Positions 1 through 8,569 of a stretch of 8,569 nucleotides of DNA are shown here, in pieces. The DNA is taken from contig SLGR01000191.1 of the NCBI GenBank assembly GCA_007136585.1, positions 1-8,569 on the forward strand. The letters run 5' to 3'. This DNA is from Candidatus Sumerlaeota bacterium (lineage in GTDB: Bacteria > CG03 > SLGR01). The notes under the pieces are model-generated. The model saw only the letters and a list, made by a program, of their open reading frames with translations, made no database searches and was not told where the DNA came from. Within the stretch, counting starts at the first letter, position 1. Each line of letters opens with the position of its first letter. The translations under genes and the position numbers were made by a program.

Positions 1-1783
1 GGTTTAAGATAATTATATTCTTACCGCCTTCGTATACATTCTCTATGAGCCTGAAGTATCTCTTTCTATGCTCCTCATCATCGCTGTCAGCCGTGCCGAG
101 CAGCATAGTATTTGGGATAACGGGCCCGAGGCCGTATATCTCGGCCAGGTTCTCCGCCCCGGAGAAGGGGTCCGTAGCGGAGATCAGCCTTACCAGCGCC
201 GGGATCCCCCTTTTATCAAGGTATTCTTTTATTGTTTTCTCCAGCCCTGCTTTCTGCTGAGCGTCGCGGGAATCGTAAGGCAGAACAACCGCTACAGTGA
301 ACATTCCCCGTCCGTGGGTAAGCATATCCGTGAACTCAATGAGATGCCATCTCCTGGTGGGAGAGCCTGAGAGTATCAGTATATTGGGTCTCCAGTTCCT
401 GGGGTCGGGGCTCCTGTCAAGCCGAAGCAGCCCCTCCCGCACAAGCATCATCCAGAGCCCCCGCCGCACATCCCCCCAGGAAGCCGCCAGGCGCCTTTTT
501 TTAAGCCATATGTAAAGGAGGGCTACAAGGAATGCCGCTACAGCCGCCGCCACCGCGTTTATAAGAAACATAACCGCAAAGCATCCGAGTGCTCCCAGTA
601 TGGAAACCCCCCAGTGCACCCGGAAAGCCGGCCGGAAAGAGGGGGAACTCAGGAAGCTCTCAACTCCGGCGGAGAGGTTAAGTACCAGGTAGGTTGTAAG
701 GAAGAACATTGTAAGCACGGGGGCTATCATATTGAGCTCAACAGTCGCCGCCAGGAATACGGCCAGGGCAAAGGTTAGAAAAGTGCCCGCCCGGGGCTCA
801 TCCGAAGCCCCGGAGCCTTTTCCCAGCCATCTCAGGCCCCGGGGAAGCACCCCGTCCCGGGCCAGGGCCTGAAGAACCCGCGGGGCCCCCAGGATGCTTC
901 CTATGGCGCTTGAAAGGGTCGCGCCCCATATGCCTGCCAGGATAAGCCAGGGCCACCTGGCCAGTGAAAACATTATCAGGGGATTTTTTATGAGTTCGTC
1001 CGCCGGGGCGCGGAAGTTGAGCAGAAAGGGCAGCGCTGCGTAAATAATAAATCCGGCTCCGACAGCAGTCATAGTTCCACGCGGGATTGACCTGGACGGG
1101 TTTTCCAGGTCCCCGGACATGTTTATACCCGCCATTATACCCGTGACCGCGGGAAAGAAAACTGCGAAGACCTGCCAGAACCCGGGCTTCAGGCCGGCAT
1201 CGGGTCCTATAAGATCAACTGTTTCCGGGGGCGCCGTTAAGCCTCTCCCCAGAAGAAGCGAGATGAGAGAGGCGGCTATGGCCGCCATTATGAAATACTG
1301 GGCTTTAATTGCTATGCGCGCGGACTTAAGGGCCAGCAGGGCCACAAAGACGGTTACGCCAACCGCGACACCCTGCCGGCTTACCCCGGGAAAGGCAAGT
1401 GAGACGCTCTCGGCAAAACCTATTGTGTAGAGAGGGATCGAGAAGGCCTGGGCAATATAGAGAGGGATCCCCACCGCCCCTCCGCTTTCAATCCCGAGGG
1501 ACCTGCTTATCATATAATAGGCGCCTCCCGCGCGGACTTTCTGGTCAGTGGCTATTGAGGATACAGATAGACCGGTAAGGAAGGTTATACCTGAGGAAAG
1601 AGTTACTATGATAAGAGTGCCGGTCAATCCTACGGTCCCGACCACCCAACCCAGCCTCAGGTACATTATTACCCCGAGGATAGTCAGGATTGAGGGGGTG
1701 AAAACTCCGCCGAAAGACCCGAACTTTACCGGGGTATCCGGTTCCGGGGCTGTTTTTTTAGTATCCTGTCCGTTTTTGTTCAT
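1..1783 (-). CDS. Cation-chloride cotransporter, SLC12/NKCC-like (partial, C-terminus outside window)
   Basis: Electroneutral symporter of the cation-chloride cotransporter family (APC fold), predicted to sit in the cytoplasmic membrane and move Na+ and/or K+ together with Cl-. The frame is open from an ATG at 1783 to the window edge, giving 594 residues with no stop. Family landmarks are in order: the TM1 region GVFTPSILTILGVIMYLRLG (26-45), GAYYMISRSLG (87-97), the TM6 region FFPAVTGIMAGINMSGD (209-225), the TM8 region LSSAIGSILGAPRVLQALARDG (290-311), and the start of the SLC12 cytoplasmic domain NWRPNILILSGSPTRRW (463-479). Y119 in TM3 sits where NKCC proteins bind K+, and S291-S292 sit where they bind Na+. 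By inference this is an Na-K-Cl rather than a K-Cl type. The Shine-Dalgarno sequence is weak. It lies 62 bases after the CPA2 gene, behind a terminator-like hairpin, so it may be read through from the operon or have its own promoter (a poor TTGTTT/TTTAAT pair ends near 1796). The substrate is inferred; the family is clear. Confidence 0.93.
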   Translation of the reverse strand, partial: MNKNGQDTKKTAPEPDTPVKFGSFGGVFTPSILTILGVIMYLRLGWVVGTVGLTGTLIIVTLSSGITFLTGLSVSSIATDQKVRAGGAYYMISRSLGIESGGAVGIPLYIAQAFSIPLYTIGFAESVSLAFPGVSRQGVAVGVTVFVALLALKSARIAIKAQYFIMAAIAASLISLLLGRGLTAPPETVDLIGPDAGLKPGFWQVFAVFFPAVTGIMAGINMSGDLENPSRSIPRGTMTAVGAGFIIYAALPFLLNFRAPADELIKNPLIMFSLARWPWLILAGIWGATLSSAIGSILGAPRVLQALARDGVLPRGLRWLGKGSGASDEPRAGTFLTFALAVFLAATVELNMIAPVLTMFFLTTYLVLNLSAGVESFLSSPSFRPAFRVHWGVSILGALGCFAVMFLINAVAAAVAAFLVALLYIWLKKRRLAASWGDVRRGLWMMLVREGLLRLDRSPDPRNWRPNILILSGSPTRRWHLIEFTDMLTHGRGMFTVAVVLPYDSRDAQQKAGLEKTIKEYLDKRGIPALVRLISATDPFSGAENLAEIYGLGPVIPNTMLLGTADSDDEEHRKRYFRLIENVYEGGKNIIILN

Positions 1784-1845: not shown

Positions 1846-3564
1846 TCATCTTCCGCATACCCCCGACTCATTAATTGCGCGGCGCAGGCGGGTAAGTATA
1901 TCGTCGGCTTTCTCAGTTTCGGATATAAGTTCGTGGCGAAGATCCTCGTTCTGCAGCACAGTCGAAATACCGCGGAGTATCTGAAGCTGGTGCTCCGGTT
2001 CGTCTTCAGGGGTAAAAACCATAAATATCAGGTGCACTTCCCTTCCGTCAGGGGCGTTCCACTCTATCCCGGCGGGGCTCCTGCCCAGGAGTATGACGGG
2101 TCGCGGGAGCCCTTTAAGGCGTGCGTGGGGGAAGGCCGCTCCCTTGCCCAGGGCCGTGGGCATCTGGCGTTCTCGATCTGTGACGGCGCGGGCCAGTTCC
2201 TCCCTGGTGAAGGATTTGATATCCCTTAAGGCGTACCCGCAGAGCTCGGAAATCGCCCCGTCCCTGTCGGATGCCTTGATCCCGGCAGCGACCGCGTCAA
2301 CGGGGAGGTAGGAGAGCCAGTCGCATTCTCTTATAGCTCTCAGGCTTCTGCTCATCCCCGGCCCCGCCAGCATTGAGGAGGAAACGGCCCCGAAAACTAT
2401 CGCCACGTAAACCGGTTCGGTTATAACCCCGTACTGGAGGGCCAGGAGCCCGATTACTATCTGCATCTGCCCCCCCGGGATATGGGCGAGGGAAATGAAC
2501 CTGCTGTGGGCCTTATGCTGACGTATAAGCCTGGCTCCGATATAGGCCCCTAGATACCTTCCGAAGACGCCTATGATAAATATAAAAAGAACAAGAAGCA
2601 GGTCAAACCCCCCTATGAAATCCAGGCGCAGGGCTATGGAAGCAAAGAATACGGGAACAAGGACAGCCTGCACCATTTCGGAGAAGATATGCCTGGTATG
2701 CTCTGTCACATCCGATTCGCCCGCTACTATGCCGGCTATGAAAAACCCGAAGAGCGCGTGAATGCCTATCCAGGTCGTAACCGCCCCGCCCGCTATGCCG
2801 GCCACGGTTACCAGGGTCAGGGACGCCGCCGGCTCGGGGGCCCTGTGTTTTCTTAAAAAACGCAGTATTCGGTTAAATATCTTGGGGCCCAGCCAGAGGC
2901 TGAGCCCGGCGAATATGGCGGTGGAGGAGATAACGAATAAGATGCTTCCCAGCGTGAAAGAGGCTTCGGTGAAGAACCCCAGTATCAGCGCGAAGACCAC
3001 CCATCCTGCAACGTCGTTTATGGTAAGTGCAGACATTATAAGGAGCCCGGTATCCGTGCGGTATATATTAAGGTCCTGCATTATCTTTGCGGTTACAGGG
3101 AGGGCGCTTATTGTCATTATGGTCCCTATGAAAAGGGCGAATATAAGGACGGTGCTGTCCGGGCCTATGTACCTGGAGGGAAGAAAGAAGACAAGAGCAA
3201 AGGCAAGGGCCATCGGTATGATCAGGTCCGAGACGGAAAGCACAAGGGCCGGGCCCCTCTGTCTCCAGGCCGTAGCAAGGTTCGTATCCAGCCCGGCGTC
3301 AAGCATAAAGAAAAGTATCCCTGTCCAGGCAAAGGTGTCCAGCATATTCTTCTGGACAGGTTCCGGGGGGAAAAGAGCGCTGTAAACCTGGGGGAAAAGC
3401 CTCCCCAGGACCGTGACTCCCAGTATGACCCCCACAAGTATCTCGGCCGTTATCGGGGGCTGGTTCTTTTTCCTGAATACTTCTCCCAGGCCCCGCGCCA
3501 GGCCAAGGAGTATCCCTATCTGTATAAGAAACAGCAGTATATTGGTTTCGCTTATGTGGTTCAC
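1846..3564 (-). CDS. CPA2-type cation/proton antiporter with C-terminal PTS EIIA domain
   Basis: Monovalent cation (Na+ or K+)/H+ antiporter of the cytoplasmic membrane, 572 aa, with a GTG start overlapping the stop of the upstream gene by 4 bases (GTGA) and a GGGAGG ribosome-binding site just before it. Residues about 8-410 form the hydrophobic Na+/H+ exchanger domain. Visible marks are the early segment PPITAEILVGVILG (36-49), the conserved MLDAGL (87-92), and the ion-site pair N183-D184 in SALTINDVAGW. Residues about 415-565 form a type-2 (fructose/Ntr) PTS EIIA domain: ALGKGAAFPHARLKG with the phospho-acceptor position H480 retained, then HLIFMVFTPEDEPEHQLQIL. The usual TrkA-N/RCK nucleotide-binding domain of KefB/KefC-type proteins is absent; EIIA takes its place as the regulatory domain. 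An Asn-Asp rather than Asp-Asp pair is often linked to electroneutral exchange, but this is suggestive only. Na+ versus K+ cannot be told from sequence. Confidence 0.93.
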   Translation of the reverse strand: MNHISETNILLFLIQIGILLGLARGLGEVFRKKNQPPITAEILVGVILGVTVLGRLFPQVYSALFPPEPVQKNMLDTFAWTGILFFMLDAGLDTNLATAWRQRGPALVLSVSDLIIPMALAFALVFFLPSRYIGPDSTVLIFALFIGTIMTISALPVTAKIMQDLNIYRTDTGLLIMSALTINDVAGWVVFALILGFFTEASFTLGSILFVISSTAIFAGLSLWLGPKIFNRILRFLRKHRAPEPAASLTLVTVAGIAGGAVTTWIGIHALFGFFIAGIVAGESDVTEHTRHIFSEMVQAVLVPVFFASIALRLDFIGGFDLLLVLFIFIIGVFGRYLGAYIGARLIRQHKAHSRFISLAHIPGGQMQIVIGLLALQYGVITEPVYVAIVFGAVSSSMLAGPGMSRSLRAIRECDWLSYLPVDAVAAGIKASDRDGAISELCGYALRDIKSFTREELARAVTDRERQMPTALGKGAAFPHARLKGLPRPVILLGRSPAGIEWNAPDGREVHLIFMVFTPEDEPEHQLQILRGISTVLQNEDLRHELISETEKADDILTRLRRAINESGVCGR

Positions 3565-4409
3565 AGGCCTCCCTTTCCTTCTTTCCTGATTTTCCGGAGC
3601 TCTGATATTAGGAGCTTCCGCAGCTCTTTCTCATCACGCGCCTCTGACCATTTATCAAAGAACCCTTCGGTTCGGACCATCTGGGCCAGGGCGGCAAGGG
3701 TGCGAAGGTAAAAATGCCACTCGTCCTGGGTCCCGGCCATTACAAAGATTGAGGTAACCCTGGGGCATTTATCGGAAAACCATATGCCCCTGCGGGCCCG
3801 GACCGAGACAAGTTCAAAGGAACCCTGTCCCTCAATTATAATATGAGGTATGGCAAAATCGGGCTTAAGAGCGGTAACGGCTTCCCTTTCCCTCTTCTTG
3901 AGTTTATCGGCTATTACCCAAGCGGGGAGCCCCTCCGACCTGCTTATGGGATGGGATATTATCTCAAAAAGACTCTCACTAGTCATATGCTCTTTAATAT
4001 CCATTATCAGGCATCTCTCAATTATATGTATCAGCCGGTCCTTTTCCGAGAGGTCGCTTCTCCTTGTTACATCCCAGAGCTCCGATTCTATCTCCCGCCC
4101 CAGTAGCCCGTCCGCCGTTACTCTCTCGACGCGTATCCCGGAGCTGTGCGCGGCCCGGGCTATGACATGGGCCGATGCGGGGTTGGTCAGGAGGACAAAG
4201 GCTAGGCAGAGAAGGGCCTTTGCCGCAAGGGGCCCCGGTCCGGCGTAGATGGCGGCCCCCGCAAGTATAAAAGTTGTACCGACCGTTACGGCCTTGGTCG
4301 CGGCCTGAAGCCTGGTATAGATATCCGGCATACGCACAACTCCCAGGCAGGCCAGGAGGTCGTAGGCTATGCCTACGGTTATGAGTATAAGCCCTGCCGG
4401 TTCATTCAT
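3561..4409 (-). CDS. mnhG: MnhG/MrpG subunit fused to a PTS EIIA-like domain
   Basis: The small membrane subunit G of an Mrp-type Na+/H+ antiporter, extended by a cytoplasmic EIIA-like domain; 282 aa against about 100-130 for an ordinary MnhG. The ATG at 4409 is chosen because it begins the MnhG homology (MNEPAGLILITVG), has AAGGA upstream, and overlaps mnhF by 8 bases. An in-frame ATG at 4445 would add 12 residues lying deep inside mnhF. Residues 1-85 hold the MnhG signature VVRMPDIYTRLQAATKAVTVG (24-44) and end in TNPASAHVIARAAH. Residues about 120-275 resemble PTS EIIA type 2: DFAIPHIIIEG carries the phospho-acceptor position H189, followed by VTSIFVMAGTQDEWHFYLRTLAAL (218-241). It overlaps the downstream CPA2-EIIA gene by 4 bases. 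The MnhG part is certain; the EIIA assignment is strong from the motif order. The phosphodonor is not encoded here. Confidence 0.9.
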   Translation of the reverse strand: MNEPAGLILITVGIAYDLLACLGVVRMPDIYTRLQAATKAVTVGTTFILAGAAIYAGPGPLAAKALLCLAFVLLTNPASAHVIARAAHSSGIRVERVTADGLLGREIESELWDVTRRSDLSEKDRLIHIIERCLIMDIKEHMTSESLFEIISHPISRSEGLPAWVIADKLKKREREAVTALKPDFAIPHIIIEGQGSFELVSVRARRGIWFSDKCPRVTSIFVMAGTQDEWHFYLRTLAALAQMVRTEGFFDKWSEARDEKELRKLLISELRKIRKEGKGGL

Positions 4410-4668
4410 CGAATTCCCGTCCTTCCAGGTACTTGCCCAGCGCAAGGCTGCCTATGAAACTCAGGAGCGCCCACCCTATGGCGACGCTCATATAAAAGTC
4501 CTCTCCTGTATGTATGCTCAGCAGAGTGCAGAACCCGACCAGGATTATTCCGATGATCTCTATCGCCACAGTCCGGTCCGGGGCTGTCGGTCCGGAGGCC
4601 ACCCGGCGGAGACATAGGAATATCCCTATCATAAGAACGGAAAGCCCCGTGTATACAAAGGCTGTCAT
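4402..4668 (-). CDS. mnhF: Mrp antiporter subunit F (MnhF/MrpF)
   Basis: Small hydrophobic subunit F of a multi-subunit Na+/H+ antiporter, 88 aa, the normal size. Three membrane segments are visible (about 4-20, 34-52 and 60-77), with the family signature ASGPTAPDRTVAIEIIG (24-40) between the first and second. The ATG overlaps the mnhE stop by 4 bases, and GAGGAG lies 8 bases upstream. In Mrp complexes MrpE, F and G pack together on one side of the assembly, and in some bacteria MrpF homologues act in bile-salt or ion efflux; here its place in the ordered gene set fixes its role. Confidence 0.93.
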   Translation of the reverse strand: MTAFVYTGLSVLMIGIFLCLRRVASGPTAPDRTVAIEIIGIILVGFCTLLSIHTGEDFYMSVAIGWALLSFIGSLALGKYLEGREFDE

Positions 4669-5189
4669 TTTGAGGGCTCCTCGAAAATTCTCTGAAGGAA
4701 ATGCTCAAATTTACCCGCTATTAACCGCCCCGCCTCTTTTTCGTCAACGCTTTTTACATTGATCCAGTGAACGTAAAGAACCCCCTCCGGGGTAGCCTCT
4801 ACGGTAAGCGTTCCCGGGGTAAGGGTTATGCAGTTTGCCAGAATGGAGATGGCGGCGGGGTTCTTAAGTTTTGTCCGTATTTTTACTATACCCGGTTTTA
4901 TAGGGAGCTGGGGGTGTATCACAAGGTAGATAACCTGCAGGCTTGATTTCAGGCAGTAGTAGGCAAATACCGGCAGGAAGAGGATCGCGTAATACCACCT
5001 GCGCGGATGCAGTATCCGTTCCGGGTGGGTGGAGAACTCCCTGCCGAATATAAAGGATACCAGGGCTGAACCCAGGGCTCCCGCAGCCAGGGCCGCCGGG
5101 TCCCATCCCCCCGGGTCTGCCGGAGAGGGCCATATAAGAAGGGCCCATATCCCCAGTGATATAAAAAATACCTCTATCCTGCTTCTCAC
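4665..5189 (-). CDS. mnhE: Mrp antiporter subunit E (MnhE/MrpE)
   Basis: Subunit E of the Mrp-type cation/H+ antiporter, 174 aa, typical for the family. It starts with GTG, overlapping the mnhD stop by 4 bases. The N-terminal part holds hydrophobic segments (about 8-20, 32-48 and 65-92). The C-terminal part is a soluble domain with the family hallmark NCITLTPGTLTVEATPEGV (119-137) followed by LYVHWINV (138-145). Ribosome binding is probably by coupling to mnhD translation, since the nearest GGAG is farther than usual from the start. Confidence 0.93.
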   Translation of the reverse strand: MRSRIEVFFISLGIWALLIWPSPADPGGWDPAALAAGALGSALVSFIFGREFSTHPERILHPRRWYYAILFLPVFAYYCLKSSLQVIYLVIHPQLPIKPGIVKIRTKLKNPAAISILANCITLTPGTLTVEATPEGVLYVHWINVKSVDEKEAGRLIAGKFEHFLQRIFEEPSK

Positions 5190-6673
5190 TGCGCCGCCCC
5201 CTCTCCGGTTTCAGGGAGAAAAGCTTCAATAACCCCTTCCCCCGCCGGGTCAAGGACCCTTCCGCGCAGCCGGGGAGCGGCCAGCAGGCTCAGCCCTATT
5301 ATAACAAGGGCCATCAGCGCAACCGGGAGTTTCACGAGAAGAGGAATAGCGGCAGCAGGCTCTTTCCCTTCCGGTCTCAGGAGAGCGGCTCTTTTTCTCA
5401 GCAGTGATACGAGTGTCCTGACGGATACAGCCCCTGCCGCCGCGGCGGCCAAGTAATATCCCGAGAAATAGCATCCGGCTATTATCATTGCCTTGCTGAA
5501 GAACCCCGGAAACGGAGGAACCCCCGCCATTGAGAAGAGCCCTATGGTTGAGATTCCTTTTGAAGGGGCGGCGGAACTTTCCGTACCCCGGAGCTCTTCC
5601 GCGGAGCCGGCTTTTAGGAATATAAGAGGTGTAAAGAATATGCTGCTTATAAGATGAAGGATCCCTCCGGAAAGGACCAGGGAGGCAGCCGCAAGGTTTC
5701 CTTCCGCGCCCAGTCTTCCTCCGATACCGAACCCGAAAATTATAAACCCTGTCTGGGATATGCTGTAATATGCGGCCGTTCTCCTGTACGAACCCGCGGA
5801 GGAGGCCGCCAGGTCCCCTGCCGCGGCTGATATAAGTCCGAGCGCGGCTACCGCAGCTCCTGTCTGCGGAGTAACTCCGAATACCGAGAAGAGCGTCCGG
5901 ACCATTGCGTATATCCCGGTAGTTGTTACAACGGCGCCGGATATAAGGGCCGCCGACGGGGCCGGGGAGTATTCCATCGCGTCGGGCTGCCATATGTGAA
6001 ACGGGATAAGAGCAGATTTCAGGGCGAACCCTGCGCTCATCAGAACCCCCGCAAGAAATAACGGCGAAAAAAAGACCCCGGATCCTCCCCCGGCCTGTAT
6101 AGCCGCGGAAAGCGAGGTTATATCCACGGTTCCGTAAGAAGCGTAAAGGACCGCTATCCCCAGTAGGGTCACGGCCGAGGCCGCGGCTCCGAGCACGGCG
6201 AATTTAAGAGCGGCCGCAAGCTCCCTGCCGCTGCATCCGAACCCCGCGAGTATATATGAGGATATAGCCGCAAGCTCCACATAGACAAACCTGTTGAATA
6301 TATCCCCGGCGAGGAGGGTCCCGTTTACTCCTGCGGTCATCATCATAAGTATAACATAGTACTTTATGCGGGATGTGTAGCGGGTCATAAACCTTGCAGA
6401 GTAGAGCGCCGTAAGGAAAATAAGAAGCGATACGCCCGTAAGGAGGATCCCGCTGAAACGGTCTATACTGAGCGTTATACCCACGGGCGGGGCCCATCCG
6501 CCCACGTAATAACTGCCGCTGAACCCGTAAAGGGAGGCTGCCATTACCAGGAGTCCGGCAGGGACAAGGAGAGCGAATACGTCGGCAGCCTTCGTAAGTT
6601 TCCCGGGGGTCAGGGCCAGGATGAACCCGGCCCCCAGGGGAAGAGCTATCATAAGGGGAAGAAGCCCGCTCAC
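5186..6673 (-). CDS. mnhD: Mrp antiporter subunit D (MnhD/MrpD), proton-translocating NuoM/N-like
   Basis: Large membrane subunit related to complex I NuoL/M/N, expected to carry the proton path of the Mrp complex; 495 aa, full length. It starts with GTG, overlapping mnhC by 4 bases. The conserved charged residues are in place: E133 in the TM5 motif RFVYVELAAISSYIL, K219 in the TM7 motif GFALKSALIPFHIW (also H226), and K394 in the TM12 motif GVPPFPGFFSKAMII. The segment SYRRTAAYYSISQTGFI (295-311) matches the usual TM8-loop region. Because no NuoL-like MrpA N-terminal half is present, this is the only large antiporter-like subunit in the window. The alternative (a hydrogenase-linked MbhH) is not supported, as no hydrogenase genes are seen here. 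Confidence 0.95.
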   Translation of the reverse strand: MSGLLPLMIALPLGAGFILALTPGKLTKAADVFALLVPAGLLVMAASLYGFSGSYYVGGWAPPVGITLSIDRFSGILLTGVSLLIFLTALYSARFMTRYTSRIKYYVILMMMTAGVNGTLLAGDIFNRFVYVELAAISSYILAGFGCSGRELAAALKFAVLGAAASAVTLLGIAVLYASYGTVDITSLSAAIQAGGGSGVFFSPLFLAGVLMSAGFALKSALIPFHIWQPDAMEYSPAPSAALISGAVVTTTGIYAMVRTLFSVFGVTPQTGAAVAALGLISAAAGDLAASSAGSYRRTAAYYSISQTGFIIFGFGIGGRLGAEGNLAAASLVLSGGILHLISSIFFTPLIFLKAGSAEELRGTESSAAPSKGISTIGLFSMAGVPPFPGFFSKAMIIAGCYFSGYYLAAAAAGAVSVRTLVSLLRKRAALLRPEGKEPAAAIPLLVKLPVALMALVIIGLSLLAAPRLRGRVLDPAGEGVIEAFLPETGEGAAQ

Positions 6674-7029
6674 TCTTTCTTCTCCCTGATTTTCGCGGCT
6701 ATCTCGTCTATATTATAAGTTCCGTAAATATGGTATATCCTCAGCGCTATAGCGGTCATCAGGGCAAGGACGCTGAGCCCTATGACTATGGAAGTCATAA
6801 CCATCGCCTGGGGGAAGGGATCCACCGATACCACCGATATCCGGCTCTGTGAGGTTACGGATGTAATAATAGGGGCTGCCCCTCCCTCCCTGTATCCGGA
6901 GAGAACGAGAAAAAGGTTGACGGCGTTCTCGATTATTAAGACCGATATGATCAGCTTCACTATGTTTCTCTGGGTGAGGAGCCCGAAGACCCCTATGAGA
7001 AAAAGAAGGCAGGTAAGGTAGTAAAGCAT
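6670..7029 (-). CDS. mnhC: Mrp antiporter subunit C (MnhC/MrpC), NuoK-like
   Basis: NuoK-related small membrane subunit of the Mrp complex, 119 aa. It has three membrane segments: one near 3-18, one at about 24-44 containing NIVKLIISVLIIENAVNLFL, and one at about 75-95. The family motif SVDPFPQAMVMTSIVIG (68-84) precedes the last segment, with E34 inside the second helix at the position NuoK homologues use for proton transfer. The ATG shares one base with the mnhB stop (TGATG), with an AGGAGG ribosome-binding site just upstream. Two close overlaps tie it to mnhB and mnhD. Confidence 0.94.
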   Translation of the reverse strand: MLYYLTCLLFLIGVFGLLTQRNIVKLIISVLIIENAVNLFLVLSGYREGGAAPIITSVTSQSRISVVSVDPFPQAMVMTSIVIGLSVLALMTAIALRIYHIYGTYNIDEIAAKIREKKE

Positions 7030-7502
7030 CAGCCCTCCTCTTTCTCAATCGTTCTTATCTGCTCGTCCTCTCCTACCCGGAGAACGCTCAGAAATAGCAT
7101 TATCAGGAATACCGAGGCGCAGACTTTTATCCCTATGGCCGCGTTGTTCACAAGCACCGTTCCGGAACTTATCAGCCTCATCGGCGTGCCGGGTATAATT
7201 TCAAGAAGAAAGTTTTCAAAAAAGATGCCGGATACGGCAAGCCCGGCCAGGGCGGTCAGGAGAAAAATGATGGCCCCCGTGGCATCCAGCCTTTTGGCAA
7301 GCGGGTAGGGGAGCCTTTGAAGCGCCGCCTCTCTTCCCCTGGCAAGAAGGGCCAGTATGAAAGAACTGGCAAGGACCACCCCGCCGGGAAACCCTCCTCC
7401 GGGAGTGATATGTCCGTAAAGTATGAGGTGCAGCCCGTATATGAATATGAAAGGGGAGACCCATCGTGATACTGTAACGGTTATGAGGCTCCTGTTCTTC
7501 AT
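7029..7502 (-). CDS. mnhB: Mrp antiporter subunit B (MnhB/MrpB)
   Basis: Subunit B of the Mrp-type Na+/H+ antiporter, 157 aa. The signature YGHITPGGGFPGGVVLASSF (29-48) is diagnostic for MnhB/MbhF. Four membrane segments are visible (about 10-28, 36-53, 75-95 and 110-143). The C-terminal tail (VGEDEQIRTIEKEEG) is charged and cytoplasmic. The ATG overlaps the upstream MbhDE-like gene by 4 bases, and a good GGAGG lies 7 bases before it. Confidence 0.94.
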   Translation of the reverse strand: MKNRSLITVTVSRWVSPFIFIYGLHLILYGHITPGGGFPGGVVLASSFILALLARGREAALQRLPYPLAKRLDATGAIIFLLTALAGLAVSGIFFENFLLEIIPGTPMRLISSGTVLVNNAAIGIKVCASVFLIMLFLSVLRVGEDEQIRTIEKEEG

Positions 7503-8065
7503 CCGGCATCCTCCGCAGAGTCTCCTGTATTTTTCCTGCCTTTTCTGCGCAGAAGTATGAGCCCCCCCAGAACAGCGGTGAATATTACCGTGGCCTCCCC
7601 GAGAGTATCATAAGCCCTGAAATCAAGGAGGACCCCGGTTACCAGGTTTGCGGCTCCAGTGAGCTCAAGGCCCCTCTCAATATAAAAGACGGAAGGGGCC
7701 CCCTGTATCCGCTCCATCACGGGTGTGCCGAAAGCGGCAAAAGTTTTTAACGAGATAAGAAACAAGGCAAAAACCGCAAGAAGAGCCGCCCCGGCGGCGG
7801 TTATCCTTTTCCGTGAAGAAGGGCCGGAGGTCAGACGGAGCCCCACGCCTATGGTAACCCTTATAAGAAGAACAAGGGAGACCACCTCTACAACGATCTG
7901 TGTTATGGCAAGGTCCGGGGCCCCCAGGAGGAGGTAAGCGATACTCCCCGAGAACCCCACGGCGCCTACTGCGATAACGGCCGAGAGAAGCTCGTCAGTA
8001 TACAGCGCGACAGAGGCTGCTATGATCGCGAAAACAAGTATAAGCGCAAGAAGCGACTCGGTCAT
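7499..8065 (-). CDS. MbhD-MbhE-like fused subunit (equivalent of the MrpA C-terminal part)
   Basis: First gene of the operon, 188 aa. Residues about 5-75 match MbhD/DUF4040: DELLSAVIAVGAVGFSGSIA (24-43), then LLGAPDLAITQIVVEVVSLV with D51 and E60. Residues about 90-172 match MbhE: ANLVTGVLLDFRAYDTLGEA (139-158), with D148, D153 and E157 followed by TVIFTAVLGGLILLRR. In full-length MrpA these blocks follow the large NuoL-like domain and are thought to line the cation path; here they stand alone as in MbhD and MbhE of membrane-bound hydrogenases, but joined in one chain. The start at 8065 has only a weak GGGA upstream. No NuoL-like gene lies before it; the next upstream DNA is a 245-base non-coding stretch and a divergent transposase ORF. 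Confidence 0.9.
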   Translation of the reverse strand: MTESLLALILVFAIIAASVALYTDELLSAVIAVGAVGFSGSIAYLLLGAPDLAITQIVVEVVSLVLLIRVTIGVGLRLTSGPSSRKRITAAGAALLAVFALFLISLKTFAAFGTPVMERIQGAPSVFYIERGLELTGAANLVTGVLLDFRAYDTLGEATVIFTAVLGGLILLRRKGRKNTGDSAEDAG

Positions 8066-8310: not shown

Positions 8311-8569
8311 ATGGTACAACTGCACAAAAAATTTACTGATGATCAGGTCAAACAGCTCTTTAAGCGTTACTTAAACAAAGAACTTAAAAGAACGTATGTC
8401 CAAGATATCCTGGAGATTAAAAAAAGACGCTTCTTTGAACTCCTGAAAAAATACAGAAAAAACCACGATGAATTCTCCATACAGTACAGCCGCTCCAAAC
8501 CTACCCGAAAAACTCCTCATCATATTGAAAAAGCTATTCTTAAAGAACTATCCGAGGAACAGAAACTTA
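8311..8569 (+). CDS. Transposase/integrase-type protein, N-terminal part (partial)
   Basis: ATG at 8311 with a strong Shine-Dalgarno; open for 86 codons to the window end. The visible part begins MVQLHKKFTDDQVKQLFKRY and is very rich in Lys/Arg and Phe/Tyr. It resembles the helix-turn-helix N-terminus of rve-type (DDE integrase fold) transposases: DDQVKQLFKRYLNKEL (10-25) followed by TYVQDILEIKKRRFFELLKK (28-47) reads as two helix pairs where the second would recognise DNA. The catalytic DDE domain would lie beyond the window, so the exact IS family cannot be named; an IS481-like or related integrase-type element is my best guess. Its base composition is clearly lower in G+C than the adjacent operon, consistent with recent arrival. 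Confidence 0.65.
   Translation, partial: MVQLHKKFTDDQVKQLFKRYLNKELKRTYVQDILEIKKRRFFELLKKYRKNHDEFSIQYSRSKPTRKTPHHIEKAILKELSEEQKL

Follow-up and report, generated by a model that had tools for sequence, protein, structure and literature searches.

Two antiporters with C-terminal EIIA domains

The DNA analysed here (the window) is the 8,569-nucleotide contig SLGR01000191.1 of a Candidatus Sumerlaeota bacterium (assembly GCA_007136585.1). It carries on the reverse strand an operon for an Mrp-type cation antiporter complex, in which the gene for the MnhG (MrpG) subunit is followed directly by a gene for a different type of cation antiporter, of the CPA2 family. The mnhG gene runs from an ATG at 4409 to a TGA at 3561 (282 aa) and the CPA2 gene from a GTG at 3564 to a TGA at 1846 (572 aa), the stop codon of the first and the start codon of the second sharing four bases (GTGA, 3561..3564). 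The original prediction, made from the sequence alone, held that both proteins end in EIIA domains of the phosphoenolpyruvate (PEP)-dependent phosphotransferase system (PTS), and the Pfam profile PF00359 matched both of them well above its cut-off of 27 bits (MnhG 55.9 bits, E-value 6e-15; CPA2 85.6 bits, E-value 4e-24). The positions given for the overlap and for the codons of the two candidate histidines (3845-3843 and 2127-2125) were also exact.

MnhG was recognized by PF03334 (8e-24, 84.1 bits, cut-off 23.4) and by the MrpG/MnhG equivalog TIGR01300 (88.1 bits, cut-off 63.1). Its membrane part (residues 1-93, 4131..4409) contains three transmembrane helices, placed at residues 3-26, 30-56 and 60-74 in an AlphaFold2 model built on a 60-row alignment, and matched MbsC (6u8y_C) and MrpG (6z16_G) when the model was compared with known structures. 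The extension of approximately 190 aa beyond it consists of a conserved helical linker (residues 94-123, 4041..4130, beginning RVTADGLLGREIESELWDV; modelled as helices at 99-115 with low to moderate confidence) and then an EIIA domain (residues 124-268, 3606..4040). The mean pLDDT of the model was 85, with values above 90 in the EIIA core and below 50 for residues 79-96. The best fold matches were EIIA-Ntr (PtsN) structures, namely 2a0j (Z 17.0, rmsd 2.1 over 145 residues) and 1a6j (Z 16.9) in a VIA structure comparison; these aligned from residue 123/124, where the PtsN match begins; the linker is absent from PtsN. A profile hit to 1a6j (E-value 2.5e-12) likewise placed the extension in the EIIA fold.

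The predicted phospho-acceptor of MnhG, His189 (CAT, 3843..3845; KPDFAIPHIIIEG), aligns with that of Escherichia coli PtsN (1a6j), and the A-x-P-H context and the arginine of the RE motif (REREAVT) are both present. The position of the second active-site histidine of E. coli PtsN and MtlA is occupied by Tyr234 (3708..3710), which does not disqualify the domain as this histidine is not invariant in the PF00359 family; among eight MnhG-EIIA members, five, including that of the window, have tyrosine and three have histidine. A cytoplasmic C-terminus of MnhG fits both the loop charges (Lys and Arg in loop 1-2 and past the third helix, none in loop 2-3) and the occurrence, in sister lineages within the phylum, of MnhG proteins that carry a CBS pair where that of the window has EIIA (L047:6679-7452 and L048:7954-8670, by Pfam/NCBIfam; L and G numbers denote loci and genomes in this work). 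Since the MnhG C-terminus is fused to CBS pairs elsewhere, it appears to be a recurrent cytoplasmic regulatory port. MnhG proteins of a length similar to those of L047 and L048 occur at L188-L190, and the MnhD proteins of these five loci form one clade.

The CPA2 protein comprises a Na+(K+)/H+ exchanger membrane domain (residues 29-404, 2353..3480; PF00999, 2e-40, 139.1 bits, cut-off 26.2) and an EIIA domain of the PtsN/Fru-like subfamily (residues 420-557, 1894..2307; TIGR00848, 67.4 bits); the CPA2 model TIGR00932 gave 119 bits, below its cut-off of 238. Its predicted phospho-acceptor, His480 (CAC, 2125..2127; GKGAAFPHARLKG), aligns with the PtsN histidine in an A-x-P-H context, and both the RE arginine (RERQMPT) and the second active-site histidine (PEHQLQIL) are retained. 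In having a regulatory tail in the cytosol behind its CPA2 membrane domain, the protein resembles CPA2 and other transporters with a C-terminal EIIA or RCK domain (KefC-like). In the window, however, EIIA replaces TrkA_N/RCK and no RCK domain is present, whereas in other genomes EIIA occurs in addition to TrkA_N/RCK.

Both domains share the predicted phospho-histidine and the RE arginine with EIIA-Ntr (1a6j/2a0j), and the modelled MnhG domain shares its fold. They belong to two different EIIA subfamilies by alignment and tree and scored only 27.3 and 45.9 bits with the PtsN equivalog TIGR01419 (cut-off 138.7). PtsN occurs free and works in trans, regulating K+ transport through its binding to TrkA, to KdpD and to the antiporter YcgO, whereas the window domains are covalently joined to transporters, that of MnhG through an N-terminal linker. 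The fusions are real, and probably represent a variant of EIIA-regulated transport. No report of MnhG-EIIA or antiporter-EIIA fusions was found in the literature searched, which does not exclude a prior description.

Recurrence of the fusions and the PTS relay

Intact MnhG-EIIA was found in five of 386 sampled genomes. The full-length proteins from other genomes showed 49-69 % identity; intact forms (279-291 aa) occurred in several phyla, with junction and linker conserved. A species-wide scan of 84,980 species genomes, in which a locus had to contain one of two peptide patterns, yielded 539 confirmed relatives of the MnhG EIIA, of which the best 80 loci were kept. Among these 80, seven carried intact MnhG-EIIA (L051, L052, L053, L054, L055, L057 and L059) and one a remnant (L056). 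All eight came from bins named CSSed10, CSSed11, T1Sed10 or B1Sed10, names that denote hypersaline soda-lake sediments of the Kulunda Steppe (PMC6146748), and none of the other 72 had a Kulunda-type bin name. The bins with MnhG-EIIA are labelled Elusimicrobia, Brocadiaceae, Phycisphaerae, PVC group or unclassified. In the bin of the remnant (G006, L043/L056:352-918), MbhDE passes straight into the MnhG EIIA after its first ~45 residues, the result of either faulty assembly or a large internal deletion.

The eight MnhG-EIIA modules formed one clade in a quick tree (SH-aLRT 99), as did the MnhG membrane parts (100/99) and the MnhD proteins of the same operons (100/100). Three genomes (G004, G001 and G033) also carry a second Mrp operon, the MnhD of which falls outside the EIIA-Mrp clade. 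As MnhG-EIIA and MnhD each form one clade, the simplest reading is that the fusion arose once and that the whole Mrp operon then probably spread horizontally.

The two fusions also occur together. The pair is present at one locus in the window, G004, G006 and G391, i.e. three genomes of one order and one PVC-group genome; in the first three, a CPA2-EIIA orthologue directly follows MnhG-EIIA. On the PVC-group contig L196 the orthologue lies two genes away, beside an SLC12 gene, and in the Brocadiaceae genome G388 it is on a separate contig (L197). Some form of CPA2-EIIA was present in all seven MnhG-EIIA genomes examined, a figure for which a base rate is available for the orthologues only (four of 61 genomes). 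Several of these genomes have a divergent CPA2 protein of ~830-850 aa whose EIIA retains the histidine and has lost the RE motif.

The genome of the window (G000; 1.88 Mb, 257 contigs, 88 % complete) contains exactly three PTS_EIIA_2 matches: MnhG, the CPA2 protein and a stand-alone PtsN-like protein. The gene for the last lies on contig C94 in a series of genes with one direction, LptB-HPF-PtsN-HprK-RapZ, mannose-type EIIA/B/C/D, HPr and EI, and a second EI is encoded on contig C164. One HPr was found, with an LGLHARAA motif and a serine motif (DAKSIMG). With EI, HPr, HprK and PtsN all encoded, a phosphodonor exists in this genome; among 16 genomes with the linker-EIIA module, HPr was found in 14 and EI in 14. 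Neither condition under which the original prediction would have failed, an MnhG extension outside the EIIA fold or a genome with no EI/HPr-type donor, was thus encountered.

The original prediction left open whether such a relay would report PEP or the nitrogen/carbon state. EI-Ntr contains an N-terminal GAF domain. The Pfam matches of both EIs were limited to the N, mobile and C domains of PEP-utilizing enzymes, and neither a classical EI-Ntr nor a dedicated NPr was found by Pfam in the ~88 % complete genome. With standard-domain EIs, a single HPr, and PtsN grouped with HprK/RapZ and a mannose-type PTS, PEP, carbon or energy status is a likelier input than nitrogen, and the nitrogen-PTS reading was dropped.

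The linker-EIIA module and the genes around the fusion

The MnhG EIIA, together with ~45 extra residues before its core, showed 30-39 % identity to the C-termini of APC permeases of ~620 aa and of a P-type ATPase, and the linker is common to the APC-, CPA2-, ATPase- and MnhG-fused modules. PtsN and the CPA2 EIIA of the window do not have this extension and fall outside the module family by alignment and quick tree. Conservation was assessed on a set of 45 profile-found modules, since the species-wide scan requires one of two peptide patterns that contain the histidine (and in one case also the second site) and would have biased the figures. The phospho-histidine was present in 44 of the 45 and the RE arginine in 43; the second active-site position was histidine in 30 and tyrosine in 13.

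Within the best 80 loci and the sampled set, the module was found on APC permeases of Cloacimonadota, Omnitrophota, Planctomycetota, Spirochaetota, Latescibacterota and others; it was also found on CPA2-TrkA antiporters (L071, L102, L104, L110 and L163). In G012, the module forms the end of a 1118-aa P-type cation ATPase (L044:4592-7945, forward strand), the contig of which carries a second EIIA fragment at positions 1-390. An F-type ATP synthase alpha subunit with a C-terminal module is encoded in an otherwise normal cluster, a full operon, of the Kiritimatiellae bin GH19 (L083:4357-6549, forward strand). A DacZ-type c-di-AMP (diadenylate) cyclase with a C-terminal linker and EIIA, all active-site residues being present, was found in the Phycisphaerae bin T1Sed10_97 (L204:1734-3173, reverse strand), the genome of which also encodes MnhG-EIIA. 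The MnhG EIIA is thus one case of a wider, little-described family of linker-EIIA modules on many ion and solute transporters. That two different antiporters of one operon carry EIIA domains, as first noted, is true and undersells the finding in this respect.

Further EIIA fusions were encountered at L171:228-2246, L174:112-2079, L170:982-2502 and L168:1504-3576, where EIIA is placed at the N-terminus of CitMHS-type transporters, is joined to a family 2 glycosyltransferase or forms part of an APC-EIIA-TrkA_C protein. One CPA2 polypeptide of G094 (L162:2863-5706, reverse strand) has two EIIA domains flanking TrkA_N, the first with asparagine in place of the phospho-histidine (AAPN) and the second intact.

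Upstream of mnhG in the window, and on the same strand, lie genes for MnhF/MrpF (4402..4668; PF04066, 57.7 bits), MnhE/MrpE (4665..5189; PF01899, 125 bits), MnhD/MrpD (5186..6673; PF00361, 120 bits), MnhC/MrpC (6670..7029; PF00420, 83 bits), MnhB/MrpB (7029..7502; PF04039, 90 bits) and an MbhD-MbhE-like protein (7499..8065; PF13244 and PF20501) that matches residues 603-799 of MrpA models, i.e. the C-terminal part only. Subunits B to G and this MrpA C-part (MbhDE) are common to Mrp (CPA3) and to the Mbh/Mbs membrane modules. The operon differs from Mrp in the EIIA domain of MrpG and in the MrpA N-terminal antiporter module, which was not found in it; Pfam detected one Proton_antipo_M protein, so that MnhD is the sole antiporter-like subunit and the operon is not a complete Mrp antiporter of groups I/II. 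The layout recurs in G004 (L039) and on L196, both likewise without the MrpA N-terminal module, and the resulting subunit set equals the membrane part of MbhA-H.

Downstream of the CPA2 gene, an SLC12-type cation-chloride cotransporter-like protein (2..1783, reverse strand; PF00324 and PF03522) runs off the contig; its homologue in G004 scored 419.7 bits with the K-Cl cotransporter model TIGR00930, under the model cut-off. CLC and SLC12 genes are recurrent at MnhG-EIIA loci, the neighbourhood of which looks like a Na+/K+/Cl- island. At L039:2216-4459, L040:4762-7026 and L041:2299-4578, MnhG-EIIA adjoins a CLC chloride channel that bears CBS pairs and the ATPase domain of a histidine kinase; none of these three proteins had a HisKA match. 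A partial open reading frame on the forward strand of the window (8311-8568) runs off the contig and had no Pfam family above cut-off.

Possible control of cation antiport by the EIIA domains

It seems probable that both domains are genuine PTS EIIA switches, likely to be phosphorylated, through which an EI/HPr relay supplied with PEP adjusts Na+(K+)/H+ antiport. In such a scheme PEP-charged EI would hand its phosphate to HPr, which would phosphorylate His189 of MnhG-EIIA and His480 of CPA2-EIIA. Its helical linker would attach the MnhG EIIA to the third MrpG helix at the cytoplasmic end of that helix, beside MrpE; the MrpE/MrpG tip has been proposed as the cytoplasmic cation entrance of Mrp complexes (PMC7419157). 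By analogy with PtsN, the unphosphorylated EIIA may hold the transporter in one activity state, from which phosphorylation would release it. Unphosphorylated PtsN binds and inhibits the E. coli K+/H+ antiporter YcgO (PMC11808508), and it inhibits Trk via TrkA, according to work cited in PMC3665714. The outcome would be a cis-acting, PEP- or energy-dependent throttle on Na+(K+)/H+ antiport that serves alongside the CPA2 exchanger of the operon.

Several points weigh against this scheme. Both phosphorylation and the effect on transport are inferred, and that effect may be of either sign. MnhG-EIIA does not have the Gly-rich loop before AIPH, and with tyrosine at the second active-site position in most members its recognition by HPr may therefore differ. 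One donor need not serve two domains of different subfamilies equally, and not every genome with MnhG-EIIA has the pair at a single locus.

The last two points bear on an alternative in which both domains respond to the PTS, yet separately, with different donors or states, perhaps of opposite sign, and no single coordinated switch. We regard this as rather unlikely. The genome encodes two EIs, and MnhG-EIIA occurs in G001, G033/G180 and G389 with no orthologous CPA2-EIIA alongside; on the other hand, only one HPr was found, and the two genes are translationally coupled through the GTGA overlap and recur as a pair in a different phylum. The coordinated switch first proposed therefore survives in part: co-occurrence supports coordinated control, with nitrogen state unsupported as its input, while a single shared switch goes beyond the evidence, given the different subfamilies and the second active-site histidine missing from MnhG.

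A further possibility, that the EIIA fold is kept and the domains serve as phosphorylation-independent allosteric or assembly units, appears less likely still. Such units have a parallel in animal SLC4 anion exchangers (Band 3, NDCBE), the cytosolic regulatory domain of which has an EIIA-type fold and a published likeness to IIA-Ntr (PMC5608694). These domains matched the MnhG model with Z 11-14, mostly from residue 93/94, so that the alignment (residues 93-279) covers the linker too, whereas PTS EIIAs align only from 123/124. The altered loop and second site of MnhG, and the few relatives that have lost the phospho-histidine (the AAPN domain of L162), are in keeping with a structural role. 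A purely structural role, however, would not need the phospho-histidine and arginine that are near-invariant across a diverse family, and EI and HPr are encoded in nearly all module carriers. The SLC4 domain is N-terminal on its transporter and is not a known PTS substrate. No SLC4 chain was among the PDB sequence hits to E 10, and Band_3_cyto (PF07565) had no hit in the window protein and weak, sub-cut-off hits in the searched genomes, mostly on small EIIA frames. Sequence-level kinship with SLC4 thus found no clear support, and the likeness was taken to be the published fold similarity, not specific to the module. A 428-aa EIIA protein of G388 (L205:1866-3149, reverse strand) had a sub-threshold Band_3_cyto hit (E-value 3.6e-6); its first 268 residues matched no family.

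That the MnhG fusion is an assembly or frameshift artefact, as might be suspected of a binned contig when a related bin has the odd MbhDE-EIIA join, is refuted by the independent full-length homologues, which form one clade across several phyla, and by the recurrence of the pair in other genomes.

Extended to the whole family, a more tentative proposal, which we regard as less likely than not, is that the module is an unrecognized, transferable receiver of PEP or energy status, placed in many phyla on controllers of ion balance. A single PTS relay would then jointly govern ion fluxes, ATP synthase and c-di-AMP as an osmotic signal, and the EIIA-Mrp operon of soda-lake bacteria would have passed as a whole between phyla. 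The wider module brings amino-acid permeases, ATP synthase and c-di-AMP synthesis within reach of the PTS, links that were not found in the literature searched. Regulation of K+ transport by EIIA is known in trans, whereas in these fusions the regulator is part of the transporter itself, and the proposition that the PTS controls ion homeostasis therefore becomes testable by single histidine substitutions. The MnhG fusion sets a phosphorelay domain beside the proposed Na+ entrance of Mrp, and so bears on how haloalkaliphiles adjust Na+ extrusion to energy supply.

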